Assembly: GCA_030625645.1 (NCBI GenBank)
Contig: DAOUQH010000002.1
Coordinates: forward strand, 1-48,993
Origin: Flavobacteriia bacterium
Lineage (GTDB): Bacteria; Bacteroidota; Bacteroidia; Flavobacteriales; Flavobacteriaceae
Length of the DNA stretch: 48,993 nt
Direction: 5' to 3'
A model generated the notes under the pieces. That model had not been told where the DNA came from and made no database searches. It was given only the letters and a program-made list of their open reading frames with translations. Below, piece by piece: positions 4,861-48,721 of this stretch. Each line of letters starts with the position of its first letter. The first letter of the stretch is position 1. Both the position numbers and the translations under genes were made by a program.

Positions 4861-5076
4861 TTGTAATCTAGTGCAAGGGGGAGATAAACAGAAGTTTATA
4901 TAAATAGATAAAGTACAATAATTTTCAAAACAAATTGTCTATCAATAAGTTTTAGGTTTTTATAGTAAAATTATTTAATTCCCTAAAAGATTCTTATTAT
5001 TGTATTAAATATAATTATAGATTATTCACGAAAAATAATACATATTTGATGCGTGAAAAAACTTAAAAACAGAAAA

Positions 5077-6333
5077 ATGAAGAAATCATCAACTTTTTTC
5101 CCATTATTAATCGTGGGAGCATTATTTTTTATTTTAGGATTTGTAACATGGTTAAATGGATTGTTGATTCCCTATTTAAAAACAGCATGTGAATTAACTA
5201 ATTTTCAGGCACTATTTGTTGCTTTTGCTTTCTATATTTCTTTTACACTAATGGCATTACCATCTTCATGGATCTTAAAAACAATTGGATTTAAAAACGG
5301 AATGAGTTTGGGCTTATTTATTATGGGTCTAGGGGCTCTTGTTTTTATACCTGCAGCTAACACTCGTGACTATAATTATTTTCTTTTAGGTTTATTTATT
5401 TTAGGTACCGGTATTGCTTTATTGCAAACAGCGGTAAATCCGTATGTTACAATTTTAGGTCCAATAGAATCAGCTGCAAAGCGTATTAGTATGATGGGTA
5501 TTGCAAACAAGGTTGCAGGGGTAATAGCACCTTTAGCTTTGGCATATTTTATTATTAGAGAAGGAGACGATGCTATGATTAAATCTTTAGAAACAGTTGA
5601 TGCTGCAACTAAAAATTCTCTTTTAGATGAAATGGCGCATAGAGTTATAGTACCTTATGTTATTATGGCAGGGGTATTATTTTTATTAGCTTTAGCAATT
5701 AGATTTATAAACCTGCCAGATATTAATACAGAAGATGAAAGTGAGAATAGTGATATATTAGAAACTGAAGAAAAAACAAGTATTTTCCAATTTCCATATT
5801 TAATATTGGGTGTATTAACCTTATTCTTTTATGTTGGAGTTGAAGTGATTGCTGGTGATACCATAATTAGATATGGTGAGTCAATGGGGATAGAATTGTC
5901 AAAAGCAAAAGTATTTACATCCTATACACTTGCTGCAATGTTAGTTGGATATGTTATAGGTATTATTTTGATACCTAAATATTTATCACAAAAAAAAGCT
6001 TTACAAATTTCAGCAATTTTAGGTGTAATATTTTCTTTAGGTGCAATTTTTACAACAGGTTTTACTTCGGTATTTTTTATAGCAATTTTAGGATTAGCCA
6101 ATGCCTTAGTTTGGCCGGCGGTTTGGCCTTTAGCAATTCATGGTTTAGGAAAATTTATAAATACAGGGTCAGCATTATTAATTATGGCAATTTCGGGTGG
6201 TGCAATTTTACCATTAATATGGGGTTGGATATCTGATTTATCATCTCCAAGAGAAGCATATTGGGTTATGATACCAGCTTATCTATTTATTTACTTTTTT
6301 GCAGTAAAAGGGCATAAAATTAAATCTTGGTAG
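5077..6333 (+). CDS. Sugar MFS transporter, FucP/GluP (fucose/glucose/galactose:H+ symporter) family
   Basis: A 418-residue membrane protein with about twelve hydrophobic segments. It has the FucP/GluP-type opening (LGFVTWLNGLLIPYLK) and the NPYVTILGPIESAAKRIS block that marks this MFS subfamily. Members bring hexoses across the inner membrane with protons. I start at ATG 5077, giving MKKSSTFFPLLIVG. A GTG at 5053 in the same frame would add eight residues with no family support. A regulator of the DeoR/GlpR family follows 74 bases downstream, and a MurNAc-type uptake and breakdown operon lies beyond it. The sugar carried is therefore probably a hexose or amino sugar, but the sequence alone does not say which. 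Confidence 0.88.
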   Translation: MKKSSTFFPLLIVGALFFILGFVTWLNGLLIPYLKTACELTNFQALFVAFAFYISFTLMALPSSWILKTIGFKNGMSLGLFIMGLGALVFIPAANTRDYNYFLLGLFILGTGIALLQTAVNPYVTILGPIESAAKRISMMGIANKVAGVIAPLALAYFIIREGDDAMIKSLETVDAATKNSLLDEMAHRVIVPYVIMAGVLFLLALAIRFINLPDINTEDESENSDILETEEKTSIFQFPYLILGVLTLFFYVGVEVIAGDTIIRYGESMGIELSKAKVFTSYTLAAMLVGYVIGIILIPKYLSQKKALQISAILGVIFSLGAIFTTGFTSVFFIAILGLANALVWPAVWPLAIHGLGKFINTGSALLIMAISGGAILPLIWGWISDLSSPREAYWVMIPAYLFIYFFAVKGHKIKSW

Positions 6334-6360
6334 ATAAAACGTCAGAAAAACTGCAATAAC

Positions 6361-6392
6361 TTGCATGCTTTTTTATTTTTTCATTATATTTG
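6361..6392 (+). promoter_or_regulatory. Promoter of the DeoR-family regulator gene
   Basis: TTG at 6361-6363 is followed after 21 bases by TATATTTG at 6385-6392. This fits the Bacteroidota primary sigma-factor pattern (-33 TTG/TTTG, -7 TAnnTTTG). Transcription would begin around 6397-6400, only about ten bases before the ATG at 6408. The in-frame TTG at 6390 lies inside the -7 box, which rules it out as a start codon. Confidence 0.6.
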
Positions 6393-6407: not shown

Positions 6408-7157
6408 ATGCTTAAAGAAGAACGTCAAAACTATATATTAGATAAGGTTAGAGAGTTGAATAAAGTTAAGTCAAATGAACTAGCTTTAGAATTAAAAGTT
6501 TCTGAGGATACAATTCGAAGAGATTTGAATCAACTTTCACATAACGGACTAATCTTAAAAGTTCATGGTGGTGCATTATCAACACACCAAAAACTATATC
6601 ACTATAATGAAAGCTCAGTTTTTAATAGAGAGAATAAAATAAAACTAGCAAAAAAAGCAATTCCAATGTTTAGTGATGGTCAAGTAATAATAATGAGTGG
6701 TGGTACTACAAATCTAGAATTATCTCGTATTATTCCAAAAGACCTTAAACTAACTATTTATACATATAGTTTAACTATTGCCATGCAACTTTCAGAACAC
6801 CCTAATGTTGAAGTAATTTTAATTGGTGGTAAAATGCATAAAAAAGCATTGGTAACTGTAGGTGTTAATGTTGTTAAAGTTCTTTCAAAGATTAAAGCTG
6901 ACCTCTGTTTCTTAGGAACTAGTGGTATTAATATTGAAGAAGGAATTACAGAAGTAGGTTACGAAGTTTCTTTTATTAAGCGGGTAATGATTGCTTCATC
7001 AGATAATGTAGTTGCTCTAGTAACCTCTGATAAATTAAATACTACACAGAGATATCCTGTTTGTGATATTGTAGAAATTCATAAAATGATTACAGATTTG
7101 GATAAGGGTGATGATTTACTTAGTCCATATATCAAAAAAGGTGTTGAAGTTTTATAA
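6408..7157 (+). CDS. DeoR/GlpR-family transcriptional regulator
   Basis: A 249-residue cytoplasmic regulator. Residues 1-60 form a winged HTH with the DeoR signature (SNELALELKVSEDTIRRDLN, then HGGAL). The rest is the DeoRC sugar-phosphate sensor domain, with SGGTTNLELSRII and FLGTSGINIEEGITE. Family members usually repress sugar-uptake and catabolic genes and are released by a phosphorylated sugar. It sits between a FucP-type sugar permease and the symporter-murQ operon, so control of one or both is likely. MurNAc-6-phosphate or GlcNAc-6-phosphate would be a reasonable effector, but that is inference. The start at ATG 6408 is supported by the promoter just upstream. Confidence 0.92.
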   Translation: MLKEERQNYILDKVRELNKVKSNELALELKVSEDTIRRDLNQLSHNGLILKVHGGALSTHQKLYHYNESSVFNRENKIKLAKKAIPMFSDGQVIIMSGGTTNLELSRIIPKDLKLTIYTYSLTIAMQLSEHPNVEVILIGGKMHKKALVTVGVNVVKVLSKIKADLCFLGTSGINIEEGITEVGYEVSFIKRVMIASSDNVVALVTSDKLNTTQRYPVCDIVEIHKMITDLDKGDDLLSPYIKKGVEVL

Positions 7158-7310: not shown

Positions 7311-7325
7311 CGTTTATTTATATTT

Positions 7326-7345
7326 TAATGCATTATTATGCATTA
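7326..7345. promoter_or_regulatory. Candidate operator: paired ATGCAT site upstream of the symporter-murQ operon
   Basis: ATGCAT at 7328-7333 and again at 7338-7343 are separated by four bases. The arms extend to TAATGCAT and ATGCATTA. The site is therefore both an inverted repeat and a direct repeat (ATGCATTATT twice) with a 10-base, one-helical-turn period. It lies about 225 bases upstream of the symporter gene. The same layout recurs twice upstream of the SusC gene (43503 and 43902). Its function as an operator is inferred. Confidence 0.4.
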
Positions 7346-7470
7346 TTTAATAAAATATTTATATATTAGCAGTGTAAAACTAGATTAAATAAATTTTGGT
7401 TTAGTTAAATATGTAAATACGCCTTTAAGGCTTACAATATAGTTTGTTTCATTTATTTTTATTTGAGTAG

Positions 7471-7514
7471 GTATAGTGTAGGGGAGAAGCTTGAGAAACT
7501 TCTCCCTACTATAC
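7471..7514 (+). terminator. Strong imperfect hairpin in the leader of the symporter gene
   Basis: GTATAGTGTAGGGGAGAAG on the left pairs with CTTCTCCCTACTATAC on the right, with small bulges and a short loop around CTTGAGAAA. It is G/C-rich against a very A/T-rich background and ends 53 bases before the symporter start codon, followed by a pyrimidine-rich stretch rather than a pure T-run. No gene ends just before it, so it may be an attenuator or mRNA-stability element rather than an ordinary terminator. Confidence 0.45.
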
Positions 7515-7567: not shown

Positions 7568-9022
7568 TTGAGTACAACATTAATATTTTCAATAATTGCA
7601 ATTTATTTTGCCATTATTTTAGTTATTTCTTATTTCACTTCACGTAACAGAAGTGATGAATCTTTTTTTACCGGAGATAAAGAATCGCCATGGTTCTTAG
7701 TTGCTTTTGGTATGGTTGGAGCTGCTCTTTCAGGCGTAACTTTCGTTTCTGTGCCAGGGATGGTAGGTAATAATAATTTTTATTTCTTTCAGTTTATTTT
7801 AGGTAATGTAGCAGGTTATTTATTTATAACCTACGTGCTGATTCCTCTTTATTATAGATTAAAATTAGTTTCAATTTATGGTTATCTAAATGAAAGATTC
7901 GGAAACATAACCTTTAAAACTGGGTCATTTTATTTTTTATTATCTCAATCATTTGGAGCAGCATTAAGGCTTCTATTAGCAGCAAAAATACTACAATTTG
8001 CATTTTTTGACAGATTGAATATTCCCTTTTATTTAACCGTAATAATCATAATTATTATGATTTGGCTATATACAAATAAAACGGGAATAAAAACAATTGT
8101 CTATACGGATACTATGCAGACATTTTTCTTAATTTCTGCTGCAGTAATTACTATTATTATGATAACTTCTGCATTGAATTTGAGTTTTACAGAAGCATTA
8201 ACTGAAGTTTCAAATCATAAATATTTTAAAGTTTTTGACTGGGATAGTCATTCAGGAAGTAATTTTTTCAAACAATTTATTTCAGGTTTTTTAATTGCAA
8301 TTGCGATGATGGGATTGGATCAGAATATGATGCAAAAATCTCTTACTATTAAGAAAATGGGAGATGCTCAAAAAAATACACTTACTTTTAGTTTAATTCT
8401 TGCAGTAACCCAATTTTTATTTCTAGGTTTAGGTATTTTATTATATATATATGCTGAAAAACATAATATTTCATTACCAATTAGTGAGGATGGAAAGCTT
8501 TTAGATACCGATACTTTATTCCCAAATTTGGCAATTAATTACCTAGGGTTGATTACAGGTATTAGTTTTCTGTTAGGTATTATAGCAGCATCATTTTCGA
8601 GTATTGACTCAGCATTAACTGCATTAACAACATCCTTTACCTATGATTTTTTAAATATTGAATCAAAAACTAGTAAGGAGAAGCTTAGACTTAAAAATAT
8701 AGTAATGTTTGCTTTTTCGGTAATCATTTTTGTGATTATTATGGCTTTTTCCGGAACAAGAGGAGATGTAATTTCAACCATTTTTTATGTGGCAGGATTT
8801 ACTTATGGACCTCTTTTAGGATTATTCCTTTTCGGAATGTTTACAAAGATTAAAATAAAAGATAATTTGGTTCTGATAGTTGCTGTTTTAGCACCTATTT
8901 TAACTTATCTGTTGAATATATTTTTTAAGAATTCATTTAATTTTGATTTTGGATTTTTAAATATAGCAGTCAATGCCGGTTTAACAGCATTAGGCTTATT
9001 TTTGATTAAAGAAGATAATTAG
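7568..9022 (+). CDS. Sodium:solute symporter (SSS family), probable N-acetylmuramic acid or related sugar importer
   Basis: A 484-residue inner-membrane protein with about thirteen hydrophobic segments and SSS-type motifs: FFTGDKESPW near residue 35, then GAALSGVTFVSVPGMV. SSS carriers import sugars, amino acids or other solutes with Na+. The next gene, murQ, starts six bases after its stop, so the two form an operon. By that context the substrate is probably MurNAc or a close derivative. I recall a comparable non-PTS transporter (MurT) beside murQ in Tannerella forsythia. The start is TTG at 7568. No ATG or GTG lies between it and the in-frame stop at 7535, and the product then begins MSTTLIFSII. 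Confidence 0.85.
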   Translation: MSTTLIFSIIAIYFAIILVISYFTSRNRSDESFFTGDKESPWFLVAFGMVGAALSGVTFVSVPGMVGNNNFYFFQFILGNVAGYLFITYVLIPLYYRLKLVSIYGYLNERFGNITFKTGSFYFLLSQSFGAALRLLLAAKILQFAFFDRLNIPFYLTVIIIIIMIWLYTNKTGIKTIVYTDTMQTFFLISAAVITIIMITSALNLSFTEALTEVSNHKYFKVFDWDSHSGSNFFKQFISGFLIAIAMMGLDQNMMQKSLTIKKMGDAQKNTLTFSLILAVTQFLFLGLGILLYIYAEKHNISLPISEDGKLLDTDTLFPNLAINYLGLITGISFLLGIIAASFSSIDSALTALTTSFTYDFLNIESKTSKEKLRLKNIVMFAFSVIIFVIIMAFSGTRGDVISTIFYVAGFTYGPLLGLFLFGMFTKIKIKDNLVLIVAVLAPILTYLLNIFFKNSFNFDFGFLNIAVNAGLTALGLFLIKEDN

Positions 9023-9028
9023 TTTATT

Positions 9029-9847
9029 ATGATATCAAGTCCATTAACAGAGCAGTCATCTGCATACGATGATTTAGATAAAATGAGCATTAACGAGTTG
9101 CTCATCAATATTAATAATGAAGATAAAACTGTACCTTATGCAGTTGAAAGATCTATACCTCAGATCGAACCTCTAGTTACAAAAATTGTTGAGAATTTTG
9201 AAAAAGGAGGTAGGTTATTTTATATTGGTGCTGGTACAAGCGGTAGGTTAGGAGTCCTTGATGCGTCAGAATGTCCGCCAACTTATGGAGTACCTGATGA
9301 TTGGGTTATTGGTTTAATTGCTGGTGGAGATAGTGCTTTTAGAAAGGCAGTTGAGAATGCCGAAGATGATGGCGAGCAAGCTTGGAAAGATCTACAAGCA
9401 TTTAAAATTAATAAAAATGATGTTTTAATTGGAATTGCGGCATCTGGAGGAACTCCTTATGTAATAGGAGGTTTGAAAGAAGCAAATAAAAATGGTTTGG
9501 TAACAGGGTGTATTACCTGTAATTATAATACTAAGGTTGCAGCCGAAGCTCAATACCCAATAGAAGCCGTTGTTGGCTCTGAATTTGTTACTGGAAGTAC
9601 TCGTATGAAATCTGGAACTGCTCAAAAACTGGTTCTTAATATGATCTCAACTTCATTGATGATTAAACTAGGTAGAGTAGTTGGAAATAAAATGGTAGAC
9701 ATGCAGCTTACTAATAAAAAGCTAGTTATTAGAGGAACCAATATGATAGCAAATGAGGTAGGAATTGACGAAGTTTTAGCCAAAGACTTTCTTTTAAAAT
9801 ATGGAAGTGTTAGAAAGGCTGTTGAAGCTTATAGAAAAGAACATTAA
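9029..9847 (+). CDS. murQ: N-acetylmuramic acid 6-phosphate etherase
   Basis: This 272-residue SIS-domain enzyme cleaves the D-lactyl ether of MurNAc-6-phosphate, giving GlcNAc-6-phosphate and D-lactate in the cytoplasm during cell-wall recycling or salvage. It begins with the family's TEQSSAYDDLDKMS segment. It has the SIS phosphosugar loop YIGAGTSGRLGVLDASECPP (residues 65-84), whose Glu81 lies where a catalytic Glu is expected. A second acidic site follows in AVENAEDD (Glu112). It also has GSEFVTGSTRMKSGTAQK. Length is normal. The operon with the upstream symporter supplies import, but no MurNAc kinase, PTS component or anhydro-MurNAc kinase is visible, so the phosphorylating enzyme must be encoded elsewhere. 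Confidence 0.96.
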   Translation: MISSPLTEQSSAYDDLDKMSINELLININNEDKTVPYAVERSIPQIEPLVTKIVENFEKGGRLFYIGAGTSGRLGVLDASECPPTYGVPDDWVIGLIAGGDSAFRKAVENAEDDGEQAWKDLQAFKINKNDVLIGIAASGGTPYVIGGLKEANKNGLVTGCITCNYNTKVAAEAQYPIEAVVGSEFVTGSTRMKSGTAQKLVLNMISTSLMIKLGRVVGNKMVDMQLTNKKLVIRGTNMIANEVGIDEVLAKDFLLKYGSVRKAVEAYRKEH

Positions 9848-9900: not shown

Positions 9901-10606
9901 ACCACATTTTATAATTTAGTTCACCTGATTTTATCTCAATAGCTTCTTTGCTTTTACAAAATAATTTTGCGGTTAAACTACCTTTAAGTATTATTGTTTC
10001 ATCATTAACTTCTAGCCAGCTACCTTCTCTTAACCCCAAAACGGGCAGTTCATTATAAGTATGAAATTCTTTGATTCTTGTTTCTCTAGTTTCACCTTTA
10101 TGTTTAGAATTTAAGTCTGGATCTAAATAATGTGCATTTATATTAAAAGGTATCAATCCTAAAGTTTTAAAGCTTGGTGGATGAATAATAGGCATATCAT
10201 TGGTTGTCTGCATGGTTTTGCATGTAATATTACTTCCTGCGCTTGTTCCAAAATAAAGAGTACCATTTTCAACAGTATTTTTAATAATATCCATTAAATC
10301 ATATTTGTATAATGTAGTAACCAATTCAAAAGTATTACCACCACCTGTAAAAATTGCTCTTGCATTTTCAATTGCTTTTTTTGGATCTTTAAATTGGTGG
10401 ATGCCTTTTATAGAAATATTGATTTTAGAAAACACGCCTGCTGCTAAAGAAGTGTATTCATCATAGGTTATTCCACTTGGCCTGGCATAAGGGATAAATA
10501 AGACCTCATTTATATCTTTAAAAAATTCCTGTAAAGTGGATAAGATATATTCTAAGTATTCACTTCCGTAAATTGTTGAAGTGCTGGCAATAATCATTTT
10601 TTTCAT
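9899..10606 (-). CDS. pepE: Peptidase E (Asp-specific dipeptidase, family S51)
   Basis: A 235-residue cytoplasmic serine peptidase that hydrolyses dipeptides with an N-terminal aspartate. The nucleophile motif FGTSAGSN holds Ser122. Asp137 (TNDMPI) and His159 (NAHYLDP) occupy the other triad positions. The spacing matches the Salmonella enzyme's Ser120/Asp135/His157 with a constant offset of two. Length fits the family. It is convergent with murQ and shares its terminator region. A role in peptide salvage is likely, and a link with murein salvage is only suggestive. The ATG at 10606 is preceded by an AGG-containing ribosome-binding sequence and a promoter. Confidence 0.93.
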   Translation of the reverse strand: MKKMIIASTSTIYGSEYLEYILSTLQEFFKDINEVLFIPYARPSGITYDEYTSLAAGVFSKINISIKGIHQFKDPKKAIENARAIFTGGGNTFELVTTLYKYDLMDIIKNTVENGTLYFGTSAGSNITCKTMQTTNDMPIIHPPSFKTLGLIPFNINAHYLDPDLNSKHKGETRETRIKEFHTYNELPVLGLREGSWLEVNDETIILKGSLTAKLFCKSKEAIEIKSGELNYKMW

Positions 10607-10704: not shown

Positions 10705-11526
10705 ATGAATCGGCTAAACCTTTTACTTATTTTATTTTTTACTGTACAATTATATGCGCAAGAATCAAATACATACATTCAAGGCAAAGTATTATCAGGT
10801 TCAACTCCTATTGAAAACATACATATTATTAATAGATCAACCAATAAAGGAACTATATCTAACAAAAAAGGTAATTTTAAAATATATGTAAGGGTTAATG
10901 ATACAATTACTTTTTCAGGAGTTCAATTTTATACAAAGACAATGATAATCTCTAAAATAGAGATACATCAAAAATTTTTAAATATACTTTTGTATGATAA
11001 AATTAACGAATTAGAAGAAGTAAACTTAGAATACAAGGATTTATCAGGTAATTTACTAGTAGATTCAAAAAAGGTTATGGATTCTATTTCTAAGATACAA
11101 TCAGGTGCTCTTAATTTTGCTATAATGGATTTTAGTCTTACTTCAATATCTGTAGCTAAGCAATTGGATGAAGATAGGTTGCCAGATTCTACAGACCCTA
11201 TGATGCCGTTAGGAGGAGATATTTTAGGTTTATTATCTTTTGTTTTAAAACCGGCTATAAAAGAAGTTTCAAAAATTGGAAAGAAGAAAAGACAACAAAA
11301 AGCAGAAGAGAAAAGATATCAAAATGCTTTAGAATTACTTCCAGAAAAAATTAGAAAAGATCTTGGGGATAATTTTTTTGAACAAACACTAAAAATATCG
11401 ACTGATCAAATTGATGATTTTATCTTATACTGTGTTAAAAATGGAGCGGGAGAATTATTTTTAAAAAATAAAAAAATGGAAATGATTGATGTATTTTTAA
11501 CAGAAAGTAAAATTTATAATAAGTAG
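10705..11526 (+). CDS. Secreted protein with carboxypeptidase-like regulatory domain
   Basis: A 273-residue protein of unknown role. It opens with a signal peptide (MNRLNLLLILFFTVQLYAQ). Residues 25-105 form a CarboxypepD_reg-like beta-sandwich (IQGKVLSGSTPIENIHIINR, then SNKKGNFKIYV, ending in ELEEVNLEYKDL), the module seen at the N-terminus of many Bacteroidota surface proteins. The C-terminal half is helical and highly charged (KIGKKKRQQKAEEKRYQ) and has no barrel, so this is not a truncated TonB receptor. The protein is probably periplasmic or surface-associated. It lies 29 bases before lpxK on the same strand, but lpxK appears to have its own promoter-like sequence, so co-transcription is uncertain. 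Confidence 0.8.
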   Translation: MNRLNLLLILFFTVQLYAQESNTYIQGKVLSGSTPIENIHIINRSTNKGTISNKKGNFKIYVRVNDTITFSGVQFYTKTMIISKIEIHQKFLNILLYDKINELEEVNLEYKDLSGNLLVDSKKVMDSISKIQSGALNFAIMDFSLTSISVAKQLDEDRLPDSTDPMMPLGGDILGLLSFVLKPAIKEVSKIGKKKRQQKAEEKRYQNALELLPEKIRKDLGDNFFEQTLKISTDQIDDFILYCVKNGAGELFLKNKKMEMIDVFLTESKIYNK

Positions 11527-40001: not shown

Positions 40002-43000
40002 ATGAAAAAGAGCTTACTTTTTGCTTTCCTTTTTTCGTGTTTTTTAACACAAGCGCAAACTATTCCTACAAATTTAAAATCTAAAATATTCACCCAAATT
40101 ACAGATACTTTACAGATTGATTCTGTGAGTATTAATCCAAATTACTTTAAAGTTTTTGATAAGCAAGGAAATCAAATAAAACAAAATGATTATCAAGTTG
40201 ATTTTGTTAAATCACAGTTGATCTTAAATAATAATTTGAAAGAATATATTACTTTCTTAAAAGTAGAATATCAATCTTATCCTGATTTTTTTACAAAAAA
40301 ATATTTTGCTCTTAACAAAAGCCTAATTGTACCAAAAACAACAGATTTAACCAAACTTTATTCTTCAAAAGCTTACAGTAAAAATAAAAATGAGAAACTT
40401 TTTGACGGACTTTATAGTAGCGGTAGCCTTTCTAGAGGGATGACTTTTGGAAACAATCAAGATGCCGTTGTAAATTCTAATTTCAATTTGCAAATTGAAG
40501 GAGATTTGGGAAATAATGTTGGGATTAGAGCTTCTATAACCGATAATAATATTCCATTACAAGAAGGAGGATACACACAAAGACTTGATGAATTTGATAG
40601 AGTTTTTATAGAGTTATTTGGTGAAAATTGGAATATAAAAGCAGGTGATATTGATCTACAAAATAGAGATAGCTACTTTATGAAATTTAATAAAAAAAAT
40701 GCTGGAGTTTTTGTTGATGTTAATTTGAAAAACAGTTTTGGTGAAACAAATATTTTTGCTTCTGGGGCATTAGTAAGAGGTAAATTTACTAGTTATAGTT
40801 TTGTTGGCGTTGAAGGTAGTCAAGGACCATATAAAATTTTGGGTGAGAATAATGAACAATATTTTTTAATTGTTTCGGGAAGTGAAATAGTTTATGCGAA
40901 TGGAGTTCCTTTAAAAAGAGGTGAAAATTTTGATTATATCTTAAACTATAATACAGGCGAAATAATATTTACTTCTTTGTATCCGGTAAATTCTAATTTA
41001 CGGTTTACTATTGATTTTCAGGTAGCAGAAAATGATTATACTCGATTTATCACTTATGATGGTGTGAAAATTAGTTCTGATAAATTAAAAATAGGAGTAA
41101 AGTATTATAATGAAACTGATGCGAAAAGTAAGACGATACAGCAAGATCTAACCGATGAGCAAAAGCAAATTTTAGCTAATGCAGGGGATGATAAAAGTAA
41201 AATGGTTTCTGTTTCTGCTATTCCTGAAACGTATTCTGATAATAAAATACTTTATAAAAAGACAATTAAGAACGGTAGTGAATATTTTGAATATTCTAAT
41301 AATTCTGAAGATGAATTGTACGAAGTACGTTTTAGTTATGTCGGTGCAAATAATGGAAGTTATAATATTCAAACAACTCTTGCATCTGGAAGAGTTTATG
41401 AATTTATTCCATTAGTAAATGGTATAAAACAAGGAGAATATGCACCTGTTATTTTACTTGTAGCGCCTCAAAGAAAACAAATTGCAGATATTGATGTAAG
41501 TTATCAGCCTACCGATAAAAGCGTTATTAAAGGAGAATTGGCATTTAGTAATAATGATCAAAATTTATTTTCAAGTATCGATGATGACAATAATAATGGT
41601 TTTGCAGGGAAAATAAATTGGGAACAAATTTATTTTGATAATAGATGGAAATTAAAAAGTACAGTAGATTATGAGCATATTTCAAATAATTTTCAAACCA
41701 TAGAAAGATATAGAAATGTAGAATTTGGAAGAGACTGGAATATTGATTATTTAAAGGGAAATCTTACCAATTTACAGCAACAATTTTTTAATGGAGGTGT
41801 TGATTTAAGATATGATAGTATTGGAGATATAAAATATTTATATCAAAACTTGAAATTTGGTGATGATTTTGTAGGAAATAGGCACGTTTTATTATCTGAT
41901 TTGTTTTTTAATAAAACACAAATTAATTTGGTTGCTAGTTTAATGAATAGTGATTCCGAAATTGAAAATAGTGTGTTTTATAGGTGGTATTCAATAGTAA
42001 AACACAATTTTAATAGGAGCTGGATAGGAGCTAAGGTAAATTATGAAAATAATAAGCAAATTGACAATTTAACCCAAGACATTGATGTTTTAAGTCATAA
42101 AATAGCCGAATTTGAAAGCTTTTTTGGTGTAGGTGATTCAACAGAAGTTTTTACTGAAATAGGTTATAATTTTCAAGAAGTTGATAGCGTTAGATCAGGT
42201 TTTTTGACCAAGGTTAACAATGCGAATACTTTTTATATTCATTCGAAATTAATTCAAAATAAAAGTACAAATCTAAGCCTTTATGGAAATTATAGAATAG
42301 TTAATAATATTTATAGTGAGGATGAAAAGAGTTTAAATGCTAGAGTTCAATACCGACAAAACTTATGGGATAATCTGGTAAATTTCACAACAGTTTATGA
42401 AACAAATTCCGGAACATTGCCTCAACAAGAATTTATTTATGTTGAGGTTGAGCCAGGGAAAGGTTTTTACACATGGATTGATTTTAATAATAATGAAACT
42501 CAGGAGATAGATGAATTTGTAGTTGCAAAATTTCAAGATGAAGCTACCTTTGTAAGGGTTTTATTACCTAGTATTAAGTATGTGAAGACTAATCAAAATA
42601 AATTGAGTCTCTCTTTAAATATAAATACGAGTAAGTGGCAAAATAGTGACGGATTTAAAAAAATTATATCTCATTTTAGCGAACGTGTGTTTTATTTAAT
42701 TAATGCAAACGAGAAACGAAATAATAGCTCTTTAAATTTTAACCCTTTTGATGTTGATGAAAACAATCTTCTTGCCCTAGACTTACAATTTAAAAATAGT
42801 TTATTTTTTAACAGAGGCCTGCAAAAGTATAGTACAGGATATATTTTTTATAATACTCGAAAGAAATCTCTTTTTTCATTTAGTGATCAGGAAAATCATT
42901 TAAAAAGTCATCAAATACAATTTAATCATAAAATTGGTCATTTTTGGTTGTTTAATTTTGATGGAAAGATAAACAGAAATACAAGTAATTCAGATACTTA

Positions 43001-43421
43001 TATAAACAGAAATTATATATTAAAAAGTTATGATTTTCAACCAAAGATGTCATTTATTCAGAATAAAAATATGAAGATAGAAGCTTTGTATTCTTATAAG
43101 AATAAAGAGAATAAGATTGCTGATTTTGAAACTTTAAAAATGCATATTTTAGGTGTAAATTTTCAATTTAACAATAAGCGAAAACTATCTTTAAATGCAA
43201 ATATAAATTGGATAAATAATACTTTTGAAGGAAACCAAAATACACCTGTAGCTTATCAAATGCTAGAAGGATTACAACCAGGCAATAATGCTACATGGTT
43301 ATTAACTTTACAAAAAAGATTAACTTCATATCTAGATTTAAATCTAAATTATTTTGGAAGAAGATCTGAAAACTCAGATATTATCCATACAGGTTCCGTT
43401 CAATTAAGAGCGAATTTTTAA
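40002..43421 (+). CDS. Large outer-membrane beta-barrel-like protein of unknown function
   Basis: A 1139-residue exported protein with signal peptide MKKSLLFAFLFSCFLTQAQ. I do not recognise a named family. Residues 20-120 form a beta-rich head. Residues 150-230 contain NLQIEGDLGNNVGIRASITDNNIP and an EFDRVFIELFGENWNIKAGDIDLQ block. Residues 300-350 (LKRGENFDYILNYNTGEIIFT) resemble an Ig-like insert. The remaining 700 residues alternate hydrophobic and polar with many aromatics and end in SVQLRANF, a terminal Phe typical of outer-membrane barrels. I recall similar uncharacterised proteins across Bacteroidota. There is no TonB box or plug, so it is not a SusC-type receptor. It is probably transcribed alone. 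Confidence 0.8.
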   Translation: MKKSLLFAFLFSCFLTQAQTIPTNLKSKIFTQITDTLQIDSVSINPNYFKVFDKQGNQIKQNDYQVDFVKSQLILNNNLKEYITFLKVEYQSYPDFFTKKYFALNKSLIVPKTTDLTKLYSSKAYSKNKNEKLFDGLYSSGSLSRGMTFGNNQDAVVNSNFNLQIEGDLGNNVGIRASITDNNIPLQEGGYTQRLDEFDRVFIELFGENWNIKAGDIDLQNRDSYFMKFNKKNAGVFVDVNLKNSFGETNIFASGALVRGKFTSYSFVGVEGSQGPYKILGENNEQYFLIVSGSEIVYANGVPLKRGENFDYILNYNTGEIIFTSLYPVNSNLRFTIDFQVAENDYTRFITYDGVKISSDKLKIGVKYYNETDAKSKTIQQDLTDEQKQILANAGDDKSKMVSVSAIPETYSDNKILYKKTIKNGSEYFEYSNNSEDELYEVRFSYVGANNGSYNIQTTLASGRVYEFIPLVNGIKQGEYAPVILLVAPQRKQIADIDVSYQPTDKSVIKGELAFSNNDQNLFSSIDDDNNNGFAGKINWEQIYFDNRWKLKSTVDYEHISNNFQTIERYRNVEFGRDWNIDYLKGNLTNLQQQFFNGGVDLRYDSIGDIKYLYQNLKFGDDFVGNRHVLLSDLFFNKTQINLVASLMNSDSEIENSVFYRWYSIVKHNFNRSWIGAKVNYENNKQIDNLTQDIDVLSHKIAEFESFFGVGDSTEVFTEIGYNFQEVDSVRSGFLTKVNNANTFYIHSKLIQNKSTNLSLYGNYRIVNNIYSEDEKSLNARVQYRQNLWDNLVNFTTVYETNSGTLPQQEFIYVEVEPGKGFYTWIDFNNNETQEIDEFVVAKFQDEATFVRVLLPSIKYVKTNQNKLSLSLNINTSKWQNSDGFKKIISHFSERVFYLINANEKRNNSSLNFNPFDVDENNLLALDLQFKNSLFFNRGLQKYSTGYIFYNTRKKSLFSFSDQENHLKSHQIQFNHKIGHFWLFNFDGKINRNTSNSDTYINRNYILKSYDFQPKMSFIQNKNMKIEALYSYKNKENKIADFETLKMHILGVNFQFNNKRKLSLNANINWINNTFEGNQNTPVAYQMLEGLQPGNNATWLLTLQKRLTSYLDLNLNYFGRRSENSDIIHTGSVQLRANF

Positions 43422-43502
43422 AAATACTACCCAAGAGTAAAATTCAGTACTCTCTAATTATTAAAATACCATTTACATTTTTGTTATTATTATATTTATA
43501 AC

Positions 43503-43518
43503 ATGCATAAAAATGCAA
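43503..43518. promoter_or_regulatory. Candidate operator, distal paired ATGCAT/ATGCAA site
   Basis: ATGCAT (43503-43508), AAAA, ATGCAA (43513-43518). The spacing is the same as at the sites at 7328 and 43902, with one base changed in the second half. It lies 475 bases upstream of susC and 81 bases after the end of the large outer-membrane protein gene. Confidence 0.3.
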
Positions 43519-43898
43519 ATTAGACTTAGTTTATTTAGGTTTAATACAAGGATTTATCGAAATCGTTATAGTAATCCTAAAAAACTGATTTATTGATAGT
43601 TGTATACTCATGAATTTTATATAATTGACTTATTGAATATGAAATTTAGTATAAAATTCCTCTTATGATTGAAATATTAAATATGTTTTTTCACTTGAAA
43701 AAATCGAAATAGAACTATGCAAATGTTAAAAAATGCTTAAATAAGCCAATACTTGTTTAATATTGGTAGTGTATATTGTAGAAATTGATGGTATTTTGTA
43801 AATTTTATTTAATAATTGCAGCTTATTGCAATTTATAAAACCATGAAACACAGCGAGTTAAATACATCATTAAGGTTATAAAAATTAAATAACATAAT

Positions 43899-43920
43899 AA
43901 CATGCATTAATATGCATGTT
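43899..43920. promoter_or_regulatory. Candidate operator, proximal paired ATGCAT site
   Basis: AACATGCAT (43899-43907) and ATGCATGTT (43912-43920) are perfect 9-base inverted arms around a TAAT spacer, 73 bases upstream of the SusC ATG. It is the best-formed member of the three paired sites and sits where a repressor or activator would contact the promoter. There is no T-run, so it is not a terminator. Confidence 0.45.
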
Positions 43921-43992: not shown

Positions 43993-46900
43993 ATGAGAAA
44001 AAAGTTTATGTTCTCAATTCTTATCGCACTATTTACAGTTGTAAATTCATTTGCACAACAAGTTTCTGTAAGTGGTTCGGTTAGGGATGGTATGAACGAA
44101 GGCTTGCCTGGTGTAAGTATCCAACTTAAGGGAGATACTCAAGGTGCGGCTACCGATTTTGACGGAAATTTTGAAATTTCTGCATCTCAAGGAGATGTTT
44201 TAGTGTTTTCTTTTGTTGGTTTTGCAAGTGAGGTACGAACAGTTGTCGGACCAACAACAACAATGCATGTAACAATGACAGAAAGTGCTGAAAGTTTAGA
44301 CGAAGTTGTAGTAACAGCTTTAGGTGTAAAAAGAGAAGCGAAAGCTTTGGGTTATTCTTTAACAGAAGTTAAAGGTGATGATTTAACTCAGGTAAAAACT
44401 ACAAATGCAATGAATGCCTTACAAGGTAGAGTTGCTGGTGTAAATGTTTCTACAAATAGTTCTGGAGCTTCTGGTTCTACAAGGGTAATTATTCGTGGAG
44501 CAAGTTCGCTTACTGGTGACAACCAACCTTTATATGTAGTAGATGGAATTCCTATTCTTAATACTACAAAGGGATCTGCTTCTACAACACAATCAACTTT
44601 TGATGGTGGTGATGATTTAGGTTCTATTAATCCAGATGATATTGAGTCTGTTTCTGTATTGAAAGGTAGTTCAGCTGCTGCACTTTACGGATCTCTTGCA
44701 TCAAATGGTGTTATTATGATTACAACAAAATCAGGTAAAGGTAAACAAGGCTTTGGAGTTGAGTTTTCAAGTTCTTTAACTTTTGATAAAGTTAATTCTG
44801 ATTTATATAGCTATCAAACATCTTATGGTCAAGGACTTTCAGGTTTAAGACCTGGCTATAGATATGATTCAGATGGAAACATTATTGATATTGAAGCTGA
44901 AGAAGGATTTGATGCTTCTGTAGAGCATGCTAAAGATAGAGGTTTAGACTCTTGGGGGCCAAAATTTGATGGTGTTCCAACAATTCAATGGGATGGTGTT
45001 AAAAGACCGTATTCATATAGTGGAGATAATGTTGATAGATTTTATGATACTGGTAGTACAGCTGTAAATACAATATCTTTTACAAAAGGTGATGAAGATT
45101 ACAACTATCGTTTCTCTTTTTCTAATCTAGATAATGATGATGTATTTCCAAATTCTTCATTAAACCGTAATACAATTTCATTTAATTCTATGGCAAAAAT
45201 TAATCCTAGATTAACATCTACGATTAATGCCAAATATATTATTGAAAAAGTACATAATCGTGTAGGTATTGGAGATGGACCTGGTAATGCAAATCACATT
45301 GCTCAAATGTTACCAAGTAACTTAGACATTAGAGATATGAAACCTGGTATTAATGATGATGGTACCGAGCTAAAATTTATTTCTAGCCAATGGTTTACAA
45401 ATCCATATTGGGTAGTTAATAAGTTTAATAATGATGATAAAAAGAATAGATTAATTGCTTCTACAACTTTACGTTATGACTTTACAGATTGGTTATATGC
45501 TTCAGGTAGAGCAGGTATTGATACTTATGATTTATCAAGACAAAATGTAACACCTGCAGGAACTGATTATTATCCTGGTGGATCTGTAGTTAATTCAAAA
45601 ACAACATCTTCTTTATTTGATGCGGATGTTATGATTGGAATTGATAAAGATATTACTGAACATTTTTCTACAAATTCTTTTATTGGAGCAAATACAAGAA
45701 CTACTTCTTATGAAGCAATGGGGCTTACAGGTAAAAACTTTATTATAGATGACATGGAAAGTGTTATGACAACTGTAAGTAAAACACCTAGTTATGCAGT
45801 TGGTAAAACAGAAACTAATTCAATTTATGGTTCATTTGAATTTGGTTTTAATGAGTTTGCTTATTTAACTTTTACAGGAAGACAAGAATGGTACTCTACC
45901 TTATCTTTCCCTGGTAAAACTACGCCAAATGAAGATTTTTATTGGTCGGTTAGTGGTTCAGTTCTATTAAATGAATTATTTGATGTAGAGTCAGTTAATT
46001 TCTTGAAATTAAGAGCTAGTTATGCACAAGTTGCAGGTGGTGCAAGAAGCCCTTATGGTTTAAACCTGAATTATGTACTTTATCCAGATTCTCATTTAGG
46101 AAATATTTACGCTTCTATAAATGGAAACACTATTCCTAATCCAAATTTAGTTCCTTTCCAAAAAGATGAATTTGAGGTTGGTTTGAATGGTAGATTTTTC
46201 CAAAACCGTTTATATATAGATGCTGCATATTATAACAATACAACAACTAACGATATTGTTGCTGTTGGAGCAGCGTCTTCTTCAGGATATACGCAAGCAT
46301 TGTTGAATATTGGTGAATTAGCTAATCAAGGTGTTGAATTCTTAATAGGAGGATATCCAATTAGAAATGATGATTTCTCATGGGAAACTTCATTTAATAT
46401 AGGTTATAATGATAGTGAGATTATTCATACAGATGATAATGATAGTGAAATAAACCTAACAGGAGGTATTGGTCGTGCATATCTTAATACGATTTCACAT
46501 ATAGTAGGTGAGCATTATGGTGTTATTAAAGGTACTTCATACGAACGTGATGGAAATGGTAATATTGTTTATGAAAATGTTCCAACTGCATCAAATCCAG
46601 ATGCAATTCCTAGACCAGTTCAAGGAGAAAGAAAAATTCTTGGTCAGGGTGTGGCACCGTTAACAGCAGGGTGGTCAAATTCATTTAGATATAAAAATAT
46701 GTCTTTAAATTTCTTGATCGATGGTAAATTTGGTGGACAAGTTTATTCTGAAACTTCAATACAGTCATATTATAAAGGTCGTCATGAATCTACCTTAGAA
46801 GGTAGAGAAAATGGTTTAAATGTAAGCGGTGTTGATGTTGATGGAAATGCTTTTGAAACTACAATTTCACCAAAGAATCTTCCAGTTTATTATAGAACTA

Positions 46901-47187
46901 TTTCTGGTGAGAATATTGGTATAGCTGAAGAATTTGTATATGATACAGATTTTATTAAATTTAGAGAAATAAGTATTTCATGGGGATTACCTCAAAAATT
47001 CCTAAGTGGAAATTTTGTTGAAGACCTAAGATTATCTTTAATAGGTAGAAACTTATTTTATATAATGAAAGATGTTGATTCAATTGATCCTGAAGCTTCA
47101 CTTAGTAACAGAAATGCCCAAGGTATTGAAATGTTTGGTGTTCCTGCAACAAGAAGTTTAGGTTTCTCTGTAAATGTTAAATTTTAA
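43993..47187 (+). CDS. SusC/RagA-family TonB-linked outer-membrane transporter
   Basis: A 1064-residue outer-membrane importer. The signal peptide ends at NSFAQ. A carboxypeptidase-regulatory-like domain covers about residues 23-105 (VSGSVRDGMNEGLPGVSIQLKG... TDFDGNFEIS). After it come the TonB-box-like region (ESLDEVVVTALGVKREAKALGY), the plug (GRVAGVNVSTNSSGASGSTRVIIRG, PLYVVDGIPI) and a 22-stranded-type barrel ending in LGFSVNVKF. It forms a lid-gated transporter with the SusD-like lipoprotein encoded 14 bases downstream. No glycoside hydrolase or peptidase gene is adjacent within the window, so the ligand is unknown. Confidence 0.95.
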   Translation: MRKKFMFSILIALFTVVNSFAQQVSVSGSVRDGMNEGLPGVSIQLKGDTQGAATDFDGNFEISASQGDVLVFSFVGFASEVRTVVGPTTTMHVTMTESAESLDEVVVTALGVKREAKALGYSLTEVKGDDLTQVKTTNAMNALQGRVAGVNVSTNSSGASGSTRVIIRGASSLTGDNQPLYVVDGIPILNTTKGSASTTQSTFDGGDDLGSINPDDIESVSVLKGSSAAALYGSLASNGVIMITTKSGKGKQGFGVEFSSSLTFDKVNSDLYSYQTSYGQGLSGLRPGYRYDSDGNIIDIEAEEGFDASVEHAKDRGLDSWGPKFDGVPTIQWDGVKRPYSYSGDNVDRFYDTGSTAVNTISFTKGDEDYNYRFSFSNLDNDDVFPNSSLNRNTISFNSMAKINPRLTSTINAKYIIEKVHNRVGIGDGPGNANHIAQMLPSNLDIRDMKPGINDDGTELKFISSQWFTNPYWVVNKFNNDDKKNRLIASTTLRYDFTDWLYASGRAGIDTYDLSRQNVTPAGTDYYPGGSVVNSKTTSSLFDADVMIGIDKDITEHFSTNSFIGANTRTTSYEAMGLTGKNFIIDDMESVMTTVSKTPSYAVGKTETNSIYGSFEFGFNEFAYLTFTGRQEWYSTLSFPGKTTPNEDFYWSVSGSVLLNELFDVESVNFLKLRASYAQVAGGARSPYGLNLNYVLYPDSHLGNIYASINGNTIPNPNLVPFQKDEFEVGLNGRFFQNRLYIDAAYYNNTTTNDIVAVGAASSSGYTQALLNIGELANQGVEFLIGGYPIRNDDFSWETSFNIGYNDSEIIHTDDNDSEINLTGGIGRAYLNTISHIVGEHYGVIKGTSYERDGNGNIVYENVPTASNPDAIPRPVQGERKILGQGVAPLTAGWSNSFRYKNMSLNFLIDGKFGGQVYSETSIQSYYKGRHESTLEGRENGLNVSGVDVDGNAFETTISPKNLPVYYRTISGENIGIAEEFVYDTDFIKFREISISWGLPQKFLSGNFVEDLRLSLIGRNLFYIMKDVDSIDPEASLSNRNAQGIEMFGVPATRSLGFSVNVKF

Positions 47188-47200
47188 AAATTAGAAGAAA

Positions 47201-48721
47201 ATGAAAAAATTAATTTATATACTAGCAATAGTATTTGCATTTGGAGCTTGCGACGAAGGTTTTGAAGAACTAAATGTAGATCCGGTGAACCCATCGGTAT
47301 CACCAGCTAAAAATCAATTGACTTATGTTCAATTATATACTGCTGGTAATGGATATGTTGCAAACTTGTTTTGGAATATTATTCATGCGCAAGCAAACAT
47401 GCAGCAAACACATATAACCAGTTATAGTGGAGCTTTTGCTTATAAACCAGGTCATACTTATAGATTATATGACGAGCAGTTTAAAACAGTTATTAAAAAT
47501 ATTGTTGATTTAGAAAATAACTTATCTAAAGCTACTTCTGCTACAGCAGCCGAAGATTTAGCAATAGCAAAAGTTTGGAGAGTTTTAGCATTTAGTAGAT
47601 TAACTGATGCTTATGGTGATATTCCTTATAGTGAAGCTGGTAAAGCTTTTATTGAAGGAATTAGATTTCCTAAATTTGATAAACAAGAAGATATCTATGC
47701 AGATATGTTACAAACTTTAGATGAAGCAGCAACTGTTTTAAATAATGGAAATGCTAGTTCTTTTGGTGGTGGTGATATTGTTTATAAAGGAGACGTAACA
47801 AAGTGGGCAAAATTTGCTAACTCATTAATGCTTCGTTTGGCAATGAGAATGACAAAAGTAGATGAAGCTAAAGCTAAAGAATGGGCTACAAAGGCAATTA
47901 ACGGTGGTGTAATGGAATCAAATAGTGATATAGCTTATATTGTTTTTGATCAATCTGCTGATAATAGAGGGCCGAGTGTTAACCCTACAACAAAAGGATT
48001 TAGTTCAAGAGTTGTTAATCAAATAAAAATTTCTAAAACTTTTATGGATTTTTTACAATCTCATAATGATCCTAGAATTGGTGTTTTATGTTCTTTACCT
48101 GATGGTAATACAGATGTTGCGGTTCAATCTGGTCAAGAGATTGATGATTACACAAAAGGCGATGCAAACTCAAAACCAAATATTCATATTTTTGGTTCTA
48201 GAACATATACAGACATGAATGGTCAAGTAGTTCCTGGATCTGCGTCTGAAATCTATGATGCACCTTATTTTTTCCAAACTTATGCAGAGGTTGAGTTGAT
48301 GATGGCTGAAGCTGCGTTTAGATGGGGAATAGGTGGAGATGCAAAAGATCATTACGAAGCTGGTGTTGCAGCTGCAATGGATTATTTATCTCTTTATGGT
48401 CATGGTTATGGTGTTTCTTCATCTCAAATTAGCGATTATATTGCCGAAAATCCTTATAATGCTGATGAAGCATTAAAAATGATCAATGAGCAATATTGGG
48501 TTGCTACTTTTCTGAATGGTTTAGAAACTTTATCAAACTGGAAAAGATCAGGTTACCCTGAATTAGTTCCTTTAGTAGTTGCTTCGCAATTAACTAATGG
48601 TGAAATTCCAAGAAGATTTGTACTACCTGGTAGTGAAGCAGTACAAAATCCAGATAATTATAATGCTGCTTATCCTTCAGGAACTGATGTGATAACTGGT
48701 AGAATGTGGTGGGATAAATAA
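47201..48721 (+). CDS. SusD/RagB-family outer-membrane lipoprotein (SusD-like 2 type)
   Basis: A 506-residue surface lipoprotein that acts as the ligand-binding lid on the SusC partner. The lipobox is FAFGAC with Cys17 as the lipidated residue, followed by DEGFEELNVDP, the usual SusD N-terminal phrase. The TPR-like helices (AKVWRVLAFSRLTDAYGDIPYSEA; KWAKFANSLMLRLAMRM) and a final GRMWWDK fit the SusD-like 2 subgroup better than the starch-type SusD. The short gap to susC and the strong terminator after it define a two-gene operon. The substrate is unknown. Confidence 0.94.
   Translation: MKKLIYILAIVFAFGACDEGFEELNVDPVNPSVSPAKNQLTYVQLYTAGNGYVANLFWNIIHAQANMQQTHITSYSGAFAYKPGHTYRLYDEQFKTVIKNIVDLENNLSKATSATAAEDLAIAKVWRVLAFSRLTDAYGDIPYSEAGKAFIEGIRFPKFDKQEDIYADMLQTLDEAATVLNNGNASSFGGGDIVYKGDVTKWAKFANSLMLRLAMRMTKVDEAKAKEWATKAINGGVMESNSDIAYIVFDQSADNRGPSVNPTTKGFSSRVVNQIKISKTFMDFLQSHNDPRIGVLCSLPDGNTDVAVQSGQEIDDYTKGDANSKPNIHIFGSRTYTDMNGQVVPGSASEIYDAPYFFQTYAEVELMMAEAAFRWGIGGDAKDHYEAGVAAAMDYLSLYGHGYGVSSSQISDYIAENPYNADEALKMINEQYWVATFLNGLETLSNWKRSGYPELVPLVVASQLTNGEIPRRFVLPGSEAVQNPDNYNAAYPSGTDVITGRMWWDK

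Follow-up and report, generated by a model that had tools for sequence, protein, structure and literature searches.

Gene content of the window

The window analysed here, a stretch of 48,993 nucleotides, is an entire contig (C16) of a Flavobacteriia bacterium genome assembly (1.96 Mb, 141 contigs, 69% complete) and represents 2.5% of the available genome. On its plus strand, a NagP/GluP-like MFS sugar permease (5053..6333) lies directly 5' of the gene for a DeoR-family regulator (6408..7157, plus strand). The permease scores above the cut-off of TIGR01272 but under that of NF046060 (458 bits against 625); it fits an amino-sugar theme and is a candidate member of the regulon described below. 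The regulator contains HTH_DeoR and DeoRC domains (PF08220, 59.4 bits; PF00455, 134.5 bits; both above cut-off), which it shares with the DeoR-family sugar repressors AgaR, GlpR and SrlR, but it falls under the cut-offs of all the NCBIfam models listed, theirs included. DeoR-family sugar repressors act by phosphosugar-responsive repression. Further along the plus strand, an SSF sodium:solute symporter (7568..9022; PF00474) is followed after a 6-bp gap by murQ, encoding MurNAc-6-P etherase (9029..9847, plus strand; TIGR00274, 318.9 bits against a curated cut-off of 302). SSF transporter and murQ share one operon, and a MurT-like role in MurNAc transport is predicted for the symporter. In relatives, symporter orthologues are 63-68% identical and lie near murQ, and DeoR orthologues are found near susCD/murQ. 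A strong RNA hairpin precedes the symporter (7471..7514, plus strand; -24.5 kcal/mol against a shuffled mean of -11.9).

Towards the other end of the window lie genes for a SusC/RagA TonB-dependent transporter (43993..47187; TIGR04056, 586.6 bits) and a SusD-like lipoprotein (47201..48721; PF12771, 273.7 bits), both on the plus strand, which together form the susC-susD pair that marks a PUL. The SusD is 57-64% identical in 12 relatives. The ORF that precedes susC (40002-43421, 1139 aa) has no sequence match in Pfam, NCBIfam or the PDB. No glycoside hydrolase family was detected among the 19 window proteins scanned with Pfam; genes 3' of susD are out of view because the contig stops 272 bp beyond it, and in the loci of relatives degradative enzymes adjoin SusCD.

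A paired motif upstream of the import genes

The initial annotation had reported paired ATGCAT motifs at 7328-7343 (ATGCATTATTATGCAT), 43503-43518 (ATGCATAAAAATGCAA) and 43902-43917 (ATGCATTAATATGCAT), all intergenic and upstream of import genes. These positions were confirmed, and all three sites lie outside the listed ORFs and 5' of import genes, the first before the symporter-murQ operon and the other two before susC. The 43902 dyad is 76 bp from susC and sits in a perfect inverted repeat with 9-bp arms (43899-43920). The 43503 dyad is distal, with ~475 bp between it and susC and ~80 bp between it and the ORF before; of the five intergenic dyads described here it is the least promoter-like. 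The further claim that no other pair exists at this spacing holds for the strict motif, since ATGCAT-N4-ATGCAW occurs at three places in the window and nowhere else in the genome as assembled (1.96 Mb, 141 contigs, 69% complete). It had, however, missed looser dyads in intergenic DNA at 6352-6365 (TGCAATAACTTGCA) and 43817-43830 (TGCAGCTTATTGCA), and one in coding DNA at 10209. The first of these ends 42 bp 5' of the deoR ATG (6408) and is a probable autoregulatory site; the second lies before susC.

With both strands counted, five strict matches were found against 0.07 expected per window in 100 shuffles, none of which reached five. The confinement of all three strict sites to 2.5% of the genome has a p-value of ~2e-5, which assumes more independence than is there, as two of the three share one intergenic region. 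The looser core, YGCA-N6-TGCR, occurs at 32 places in the genome, compared to 5 for the reversed control. Six are in the window (p ~1e-4 for six of 32 in 2.5% of the genome), at 6352, 7329, 43504, 43817 and 43903 in intergenic DNA and at 10209 in a coding region, and for five of the six to fall within the 4.2 kb of the window that is intergenic the p-value is ~3e-5.

In six genomes of the genus, the strict motif occurs at five places outside the window's own genome, all within ORFs. The strict ATGCAT pair is thus uninformative on congeners, while the looser core is informative. In congener G146, whose DeoR is 82% identical, the spacers have diverged, yet the dyads at the 6352 and 7329 positions are kept. 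No dyad was found in the 522 bp before the SusC of this congener (locus L112, 60% identical, separate contig). Conservation of the sites in orthologous intergenic regions, whose lack would have counted against the initial annotation, applies to the deoR and symporter sites and, as described below, to most susC genes accompanied by a close DeoR, but not to the susC of the congener. At L112, the SusD is split into two ORFs next to SusC, and a NagB-like gene follows. In another close relative, L134 (SusD 91-92% identical), an imperfect dyad aligns with 43903 and a perfect one lies further upstream of susC; the best DeoR match in its genome is 30% identical, and no close DeoR was found there.

The core of the putative operator in relatives

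Without seeding the search, we scanned all 3-mer dyads with spacers of 0-20 across the upstream regions of 21 susC genes whose loci encode a DeoR at least 50% identical to that of the window. GCA-N6-TGC ranked first of 20,050 dyads, being present in 20 of the 21 regions (expected 0.85) and in 0 of 55 control susC regions. The second-ranked dyad was GCA-N17-TGC (18/21, control 2/55). A position weight matrix (PWM) from 38 sites of relatives ranked 43903, 43504, 7329, 6352 and 43817, in this order, as the five best matches in the window, all of them intergenic. A score of 19.8 bits, that of 7329, was reached 0.017 times on average across 60 simulated sequences. The unseeded scan is the stronger of the two tests, since the PWM was built with a seed pattern that came from the finding itself.

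Distinct dyads in 27 loci of relatives are concentrated outside genes, with 24 in 47 kb of intergenic DNA compared to 15 in 471 kb of coding DNA. In a list of 28 intergenic dyads that keeps duplicates and includes two congener stretches, 27 lie at most 700 bp upstream of a DeoR, NagX or SusC homologue, the exception being at a contig end. The TGCA cores and their spacing recur across relatives and the flanks vary; the core common to them is YGCA-N6-TGCR, and not the strict ATGCAT pair. The relatives are not independent of one another, and so the p-values overstate the case. Alignment by eye revealed three half-sites in many of the relatives' susC operators, outer AAACAYGCA and TGCRTGTTT and an inner TGCA, and the 43902 site of the window looks like the outer half-sites pulled together to 10-bp spacing. 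A -7-like TAnnTTT(G/T) box, a Bacteroidota promoter element, follows the dyad at a distance of 10-45 nt in 19 of 40 cases, compared to a mean of 7.8 and a maximum of 15 in shuffles. Of the four own-genome sites included, only that of deoR has this geometry. A DeoR dimer bound at such a dyad would sit close to the -33 region, a position that suits repression.

Association of the dyad with DeoR

Where the DeoR is at least 50% identical, a dyad lies 5' of susC in 18 of 20 loci; it is absent before susC in three loci whose DeoR falls below 50%, and was found before none of 45 susC genes in a control SusCD clade. Neither DeoR nor MurQ was found in the 47 loci of that clade, among the best 80 of 137 loci overall. 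We also drew 30 loci by DeoR similarity alone (44 genomes had a match) and excluded the own genome and the congener. A dyad is located at most 350 bp upstream of the DeoR gene in 13 of these 28 loci, comprising 5 of 9 at 49-80% identity (expected 0.12) and 8 of 19 below 49% (expected 0.55). As these genes were chosen by DeoR alone, this links the motif to the DeoR subfamily and not to the importer. Dyads are also found beside SusC homologues of only 26-38% identity. This is in line with the proposal of the initial annotation that one regulator, perhaps this DeoR protein, controls both loci, and conservation and synteny point the same way.

Two loci (L040 and L041, from genomes G014 and G125) contain two DeoR copies ~10 kb apart. 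One copy is near the murein SusCD, and the other adjoins another SusC (26% identical), likewise with a dyad. The DeoR subfamily may have duplicated together with its own importer pairs. In a further locus (L038, G024), a run of ~15 G at ~10906-10920 apparently breaks the frame of a NagX-like gene beside DeoR; this is either a phase-variable tract or a sequencing artefact.

Synteny of SusCD with murein genes

A DeoR homologue was matched in 44 of 149 genomes of the family. In 5 of the 14 non-congener DeoR loci that were read first, a SusC orthologue (~60%) adjoins DeoR or is one gene off, followed by SusD, symporter and MurQ as far as the stretches reach. A SusD search of 397 genomes returned 12 besides that of the window at 56% identity or more, and in 10 of these 12 genomes the orthologous SusC/SusD has a deoR/symporter/murQ neighbourhood; L093 and L094 lack the MurQ/symporter neighbourhood within the stretch read. 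All of deoR, susCD, symporter and murQ occupy one locus in named strains, examples being found in Yeosuana, Gelidibacter, Polaribacter, Formosa and Wocania.

We compared the neighbours, counted at 40% identity or more, of 80 named SusCD loci (the best 80 of 137), 33 with a SusD of at least 54% identity and 47 below. Among these, MurQ is near SusCD in 23/33 clade loci versus 0/47, DeoR in 22/33 versus 0/47, NamZ in 21/33 versus 0/47 (with up to three per locus), GH3 in 22/33 versus 0/47 and SSF in 23/33 versus 1/47, whereas a NagB-like gene does not discriminate (5/33 versus 9/47). The locus in relatives also includes NamZ exo-N-acetylmuramidases (PF07075), a GH3 akin to beta-N-acetylhexosaminidase, a GH18 with a type IX secretion tail, NagX, DUF6259, a YdiJ-like FAD/Fe-S dehydrogenase and a NagB-like protein, where the family names are annotation labels, several with scores under NCBIfam cut-offs, and the activities are predictions. 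Ten of the 33 clade loci (again among the best 80 of 137) are without MurQ, 10 without DeoR and 8 without both; some of these are on short contigs, but not L135 and L142 (21 kb).

In trees, the SusC and SusD of the window share a long branch with L134, outside the main murein-linked clade of 20-22 loci, and the window's SusD sits beside pairs for which no murein genes are in view. Orthology accordingly gives moderate grounds for transferring the substrate, and the shared operator bears much of the weight. Judged from these comparisons, the window carries a locus of this kind divided between two operons that lie 36 kb from each other and retain the operator. In about a dozen relatives, a hairpin likewise separates susD from the gene that follows. 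The hairpin at 7471-7514 might act in attenuation or be left over from an ancestral susCD-symporter-murQ operon; the likeness would fit an ancestral single operon that was later split, with the qualification that the hairpin sequences differ and the trees are no proof.

Possible extent of the proposed regulon

With an A/T spacer, the core (YGCA-W6-TGCR) occurs at seven places in the genome, namely the three of the window, one before a dehydrogenase gene and three inside genes. The four intergenic places all lie before genes whose orthologues belong to the murein locus of relatives. The genome-wide scan for unrelated matches, proposed with the initial annotation, thus returned none for the strict motif and none among the intergenic places of the A/T-spacer core. 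The dehydrogenase dyad (PWM 18.7) is ~50 bp before a gene for a FAD/Fe-S protein that is 68% identical to the dehydrogenase of the relatives' loci. A narrower pattern, YGCAT-W4-TTGCR, proved too strict and matched only this site.

Outside the window, YGCA-N6-TGCR is found at 26 places, 20 in genes and 6 not. The six include sites at genes for an epimerase of the L-Ala-D/L-Glu/DgcA group (the dyad lies across the start codon, PWM 16.9), diaminopimelate decarboxylase LysA (PWM 11.6) and an SH3-NlpC/P60 protein, an endopeptidase (PWM 11.2), as well as an IS200-like gene, identified by reading the protein without a family search (PWM 6.2), and a place without a gene in the stretch (PWM 4.5). From the coding rate, we estimate that ~2-3 intergenic places are expected by chance, which makes the peptide-side genes suggestive only. 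The epimerase, SH3-NlpC/P60 and decarboxylase dyads are located at L229:6399 (G000:C89:11398), L227:1495 (C131:4994) and L223:1511 (C91:5210), respectively.

In six relatives, the A/T-spacer pattern has little genome-wide excess (50 places versus 35 for the reversed control), and in two of the six the control is equal or nearly equal to it. We read 47 of the 50 places in context, the other three being within loci already read. Fourteen of the 47 are intergenic; eight of these adjoin a DeoR or SusC homologue, and six adjoin other or no genes. No epimerase, NlpC/P60 or LysA homologue was found beside these 14 places. The A/T-spacer pattern cannot match the spacers of the peptide-side sites, so this neither supports nor excludes those three sites of the own genome. 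The single NamZ gene of the genome lies on a 15.9 kb contig that carries no dyad. A BcrAD_BadFG protein on contig C34 matches PDB entry 8ow9, 'Putative novel MurNAc kinase' (7.9e-47), and chains named 'N-acetylglucosamine kinase' (6e-40 and 1.1e-39). A genome-wide murein-scavenging regulon, in which DeoR and TGCA-N6-TGCA operators would cover SusCD, the MurNAc-to-GlcNAc-6-P pathway, D-lactate oxidation and the peptide-side genes, is a tentative and somewhat doubtful extension. If it were true, the walls of other bacteria would be food, glycan and peptide alike.

A model for control of murein-sugar uptake

Site rarity, conservation, linkage to the DeoR type, synteny and protein families were computed. 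From them we infer the binding, the sign of regulation and the effector, and the substrates of SusCD, kinase and dehydrogenase. The dyads are very probably operators of the DeoR protein at 6408-7157, which would recognise two TGCA half-sites spaced by one helical turn (YGCA-N6-TGCR). From sites at or near promoters, it would repress its own gene, the symporter-murQ operon and the susC-susD operon 36 kb off, and a phosphorylated amino sugar (MurNAc-6-P or GlcNAc-6-P) would release it. SusCD would carry MurNAc-containing fragments across the outer membrane, and the SSF symporter would move MurNAc through the inner membrane. Phosphorylation of MurNAc would fall to a BadF-type kinase encoded elsewhere, MurQ would convert MurNAc-6-P to GlcNAc-6-P and D-lactate, and the FAD/Fe-S dehydrogenase with the same operator would oxidise the D-lactate. 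That SusCD carries murein fragments seems rather likely; it is a good candidate importer of wall fragments because the paired motif ties it to wall-sugar genes 36 kb away. The initial annotation had put SusCD forward as a candidate importer of peptidoglycan-derived ligands, and synteny with murQ and NamZ, together with the shared operator, argues for it. The reading as a whole, in which a DeoR-type repressor governs murein-sugar catabolism including SusCD, is likely.

Two alternatives concern what is regulated and by what. The sites could be DeoR operators of a general amino-sugar regulon of the GlcNAc/chitin type, with SusCD importing GlcNAc-oligosaccharides other than murein and MurQ recycling the cell's own wall. 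The NagP-like permease just 5' of deoR, the NagX and NagB-like genes in the relatives' loci and the ability of GH3 and GH18 to act on GlcNAc linkages would all suit this, as would the NagB-like gene that adjoins SusCD in L138 and in congener L112, a gene which is also near control SusCDs (9/47 versus 5/33). We nevertheless consider it rather unlikely, given the NamZ and MurQ genes in 21 and 23 of the 33 clade loci (best 80 of 137 loci) and a D-lactate-type dehydrogenase that would suit MurNAc but not GlcNAc. That another regulator with the same targets owns the sites, with DeoR a bystander, is improbable, as 13 of the 28 loci selected by DeoR similarity have a dyad upstream of the DeoR-subfamily gene, and dyads also lie beside SusC homologues of as little as 26-38% identity. 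Binding of DeoR to the operator is nonetheless a prediction from sequence, dyads occur in L134's genome without a close DeoR and in L138 with no DeoR within its 13.9 kb stretch, and susC is without a dyad in 2 of 20 loci with a close DeoR.

The motif itself could also be explained without a repressor. AT-rich spacers might yield fortuitous, functionless ATGCAT pairs, and YGCA-N6-TGCR indeed occurs 32 times in the genome, with coding dyads of similar score existing elsewhere (PWM 18.3 in L122). The rarity of the strict motif, the PWM ranking, the unseeded scan, the congener footprints and the intergenic and window enrichment make chance very improbable. RNA hairpins or terminators instead of operators are the most remote of the explanations. 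The repeat at 43899-43920 does form a 9-bp stem (its stretch folds at -10.3 kcal/mol, z -4.46) and has a terminator-like score on the minus strand, but 7320-7380 (z -1.03) and 43490-43540 (z -0.90) fold no better than shuffles, Rfam has no match in the window, and what recurs in relatives is the TGCA cores and their spacing while the flanks vary. With just one of three stretches folding beyond shuffles and no Rfam match, we rejected the hairpin/terminator reading.

Comparison with known systems

The walls of dead bacteria make up a sizeable pool of organic matter in water and sediment. In the searchable literature we found no tested outer-membrane uptake step for it in Bacteroidota, and the largely open-access papers searched yielded neither an operator nor a DeoR regulon for a locus of this type. 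With a specific SusCD clade, a named regulator and a candidate operator of 14 bp, wall uptake becomes testable, as the operator predicts which genes respond and named strains with the whole locus exist. The window resembles canonical Sus-like PULs in its SusC-SusD pair, and the relatives' pairs adjoin glycoside hydrolases. It differs in its regulator, a cytoplasmic DeoR, whereas the usual PUL regulators of Bacteroidota are HTCS, SusR or ECF sigma factors.

In Tannerella forsythia, MurT is a MurNAc transporter of the sodium-symporter superfamily encoded in an operon with murK and murQ, according to the parts of PMC5790795 consulted. The symporter-murQ operon of the window resembles it, and the present genome contains a homologue of solved MurNAc/GlcNAc kinases. 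The kinase gene is, however, within the operon in T. forsythia (PMC5790795) and outside it here. The AmpG operon of T. forsythia is described, in the text available to us, as being under GppX, a hybrid two-component regulator and not a DeoR (PMC5388701). A term search of the accessible text of these two papers found no SusC protein.

The initial annotation knew of no described SusCD for such a substrate, which is nearly right, the exception being one paper (PMC10199937, 2023; consulted in part) that describes, without a functional test, a murein-type PUL that contains deoR, susCD and murQ and belongs to a Urechidicola symbiont of Idas mussels. In the sections consulted, that PUL likewise comprises susCD, deoR, a sodium co-transporter, murQ and nagB, and also includes GH3, GH18, GH171, an amidase and an L-Ala-D/L-Glu epimerase, all in one PUL (PMC10199937); those sections give no operator, regulon or experiment on the PUL. 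It is a single locus, compared to the two operons of the window. In our set, L212 comes from a Urechidicola sp. MAG whose DeoR is only 42% identical and whose susC has no dyad; this MAG is perhaps the same genome as that of the Idas-mussel symbiont.
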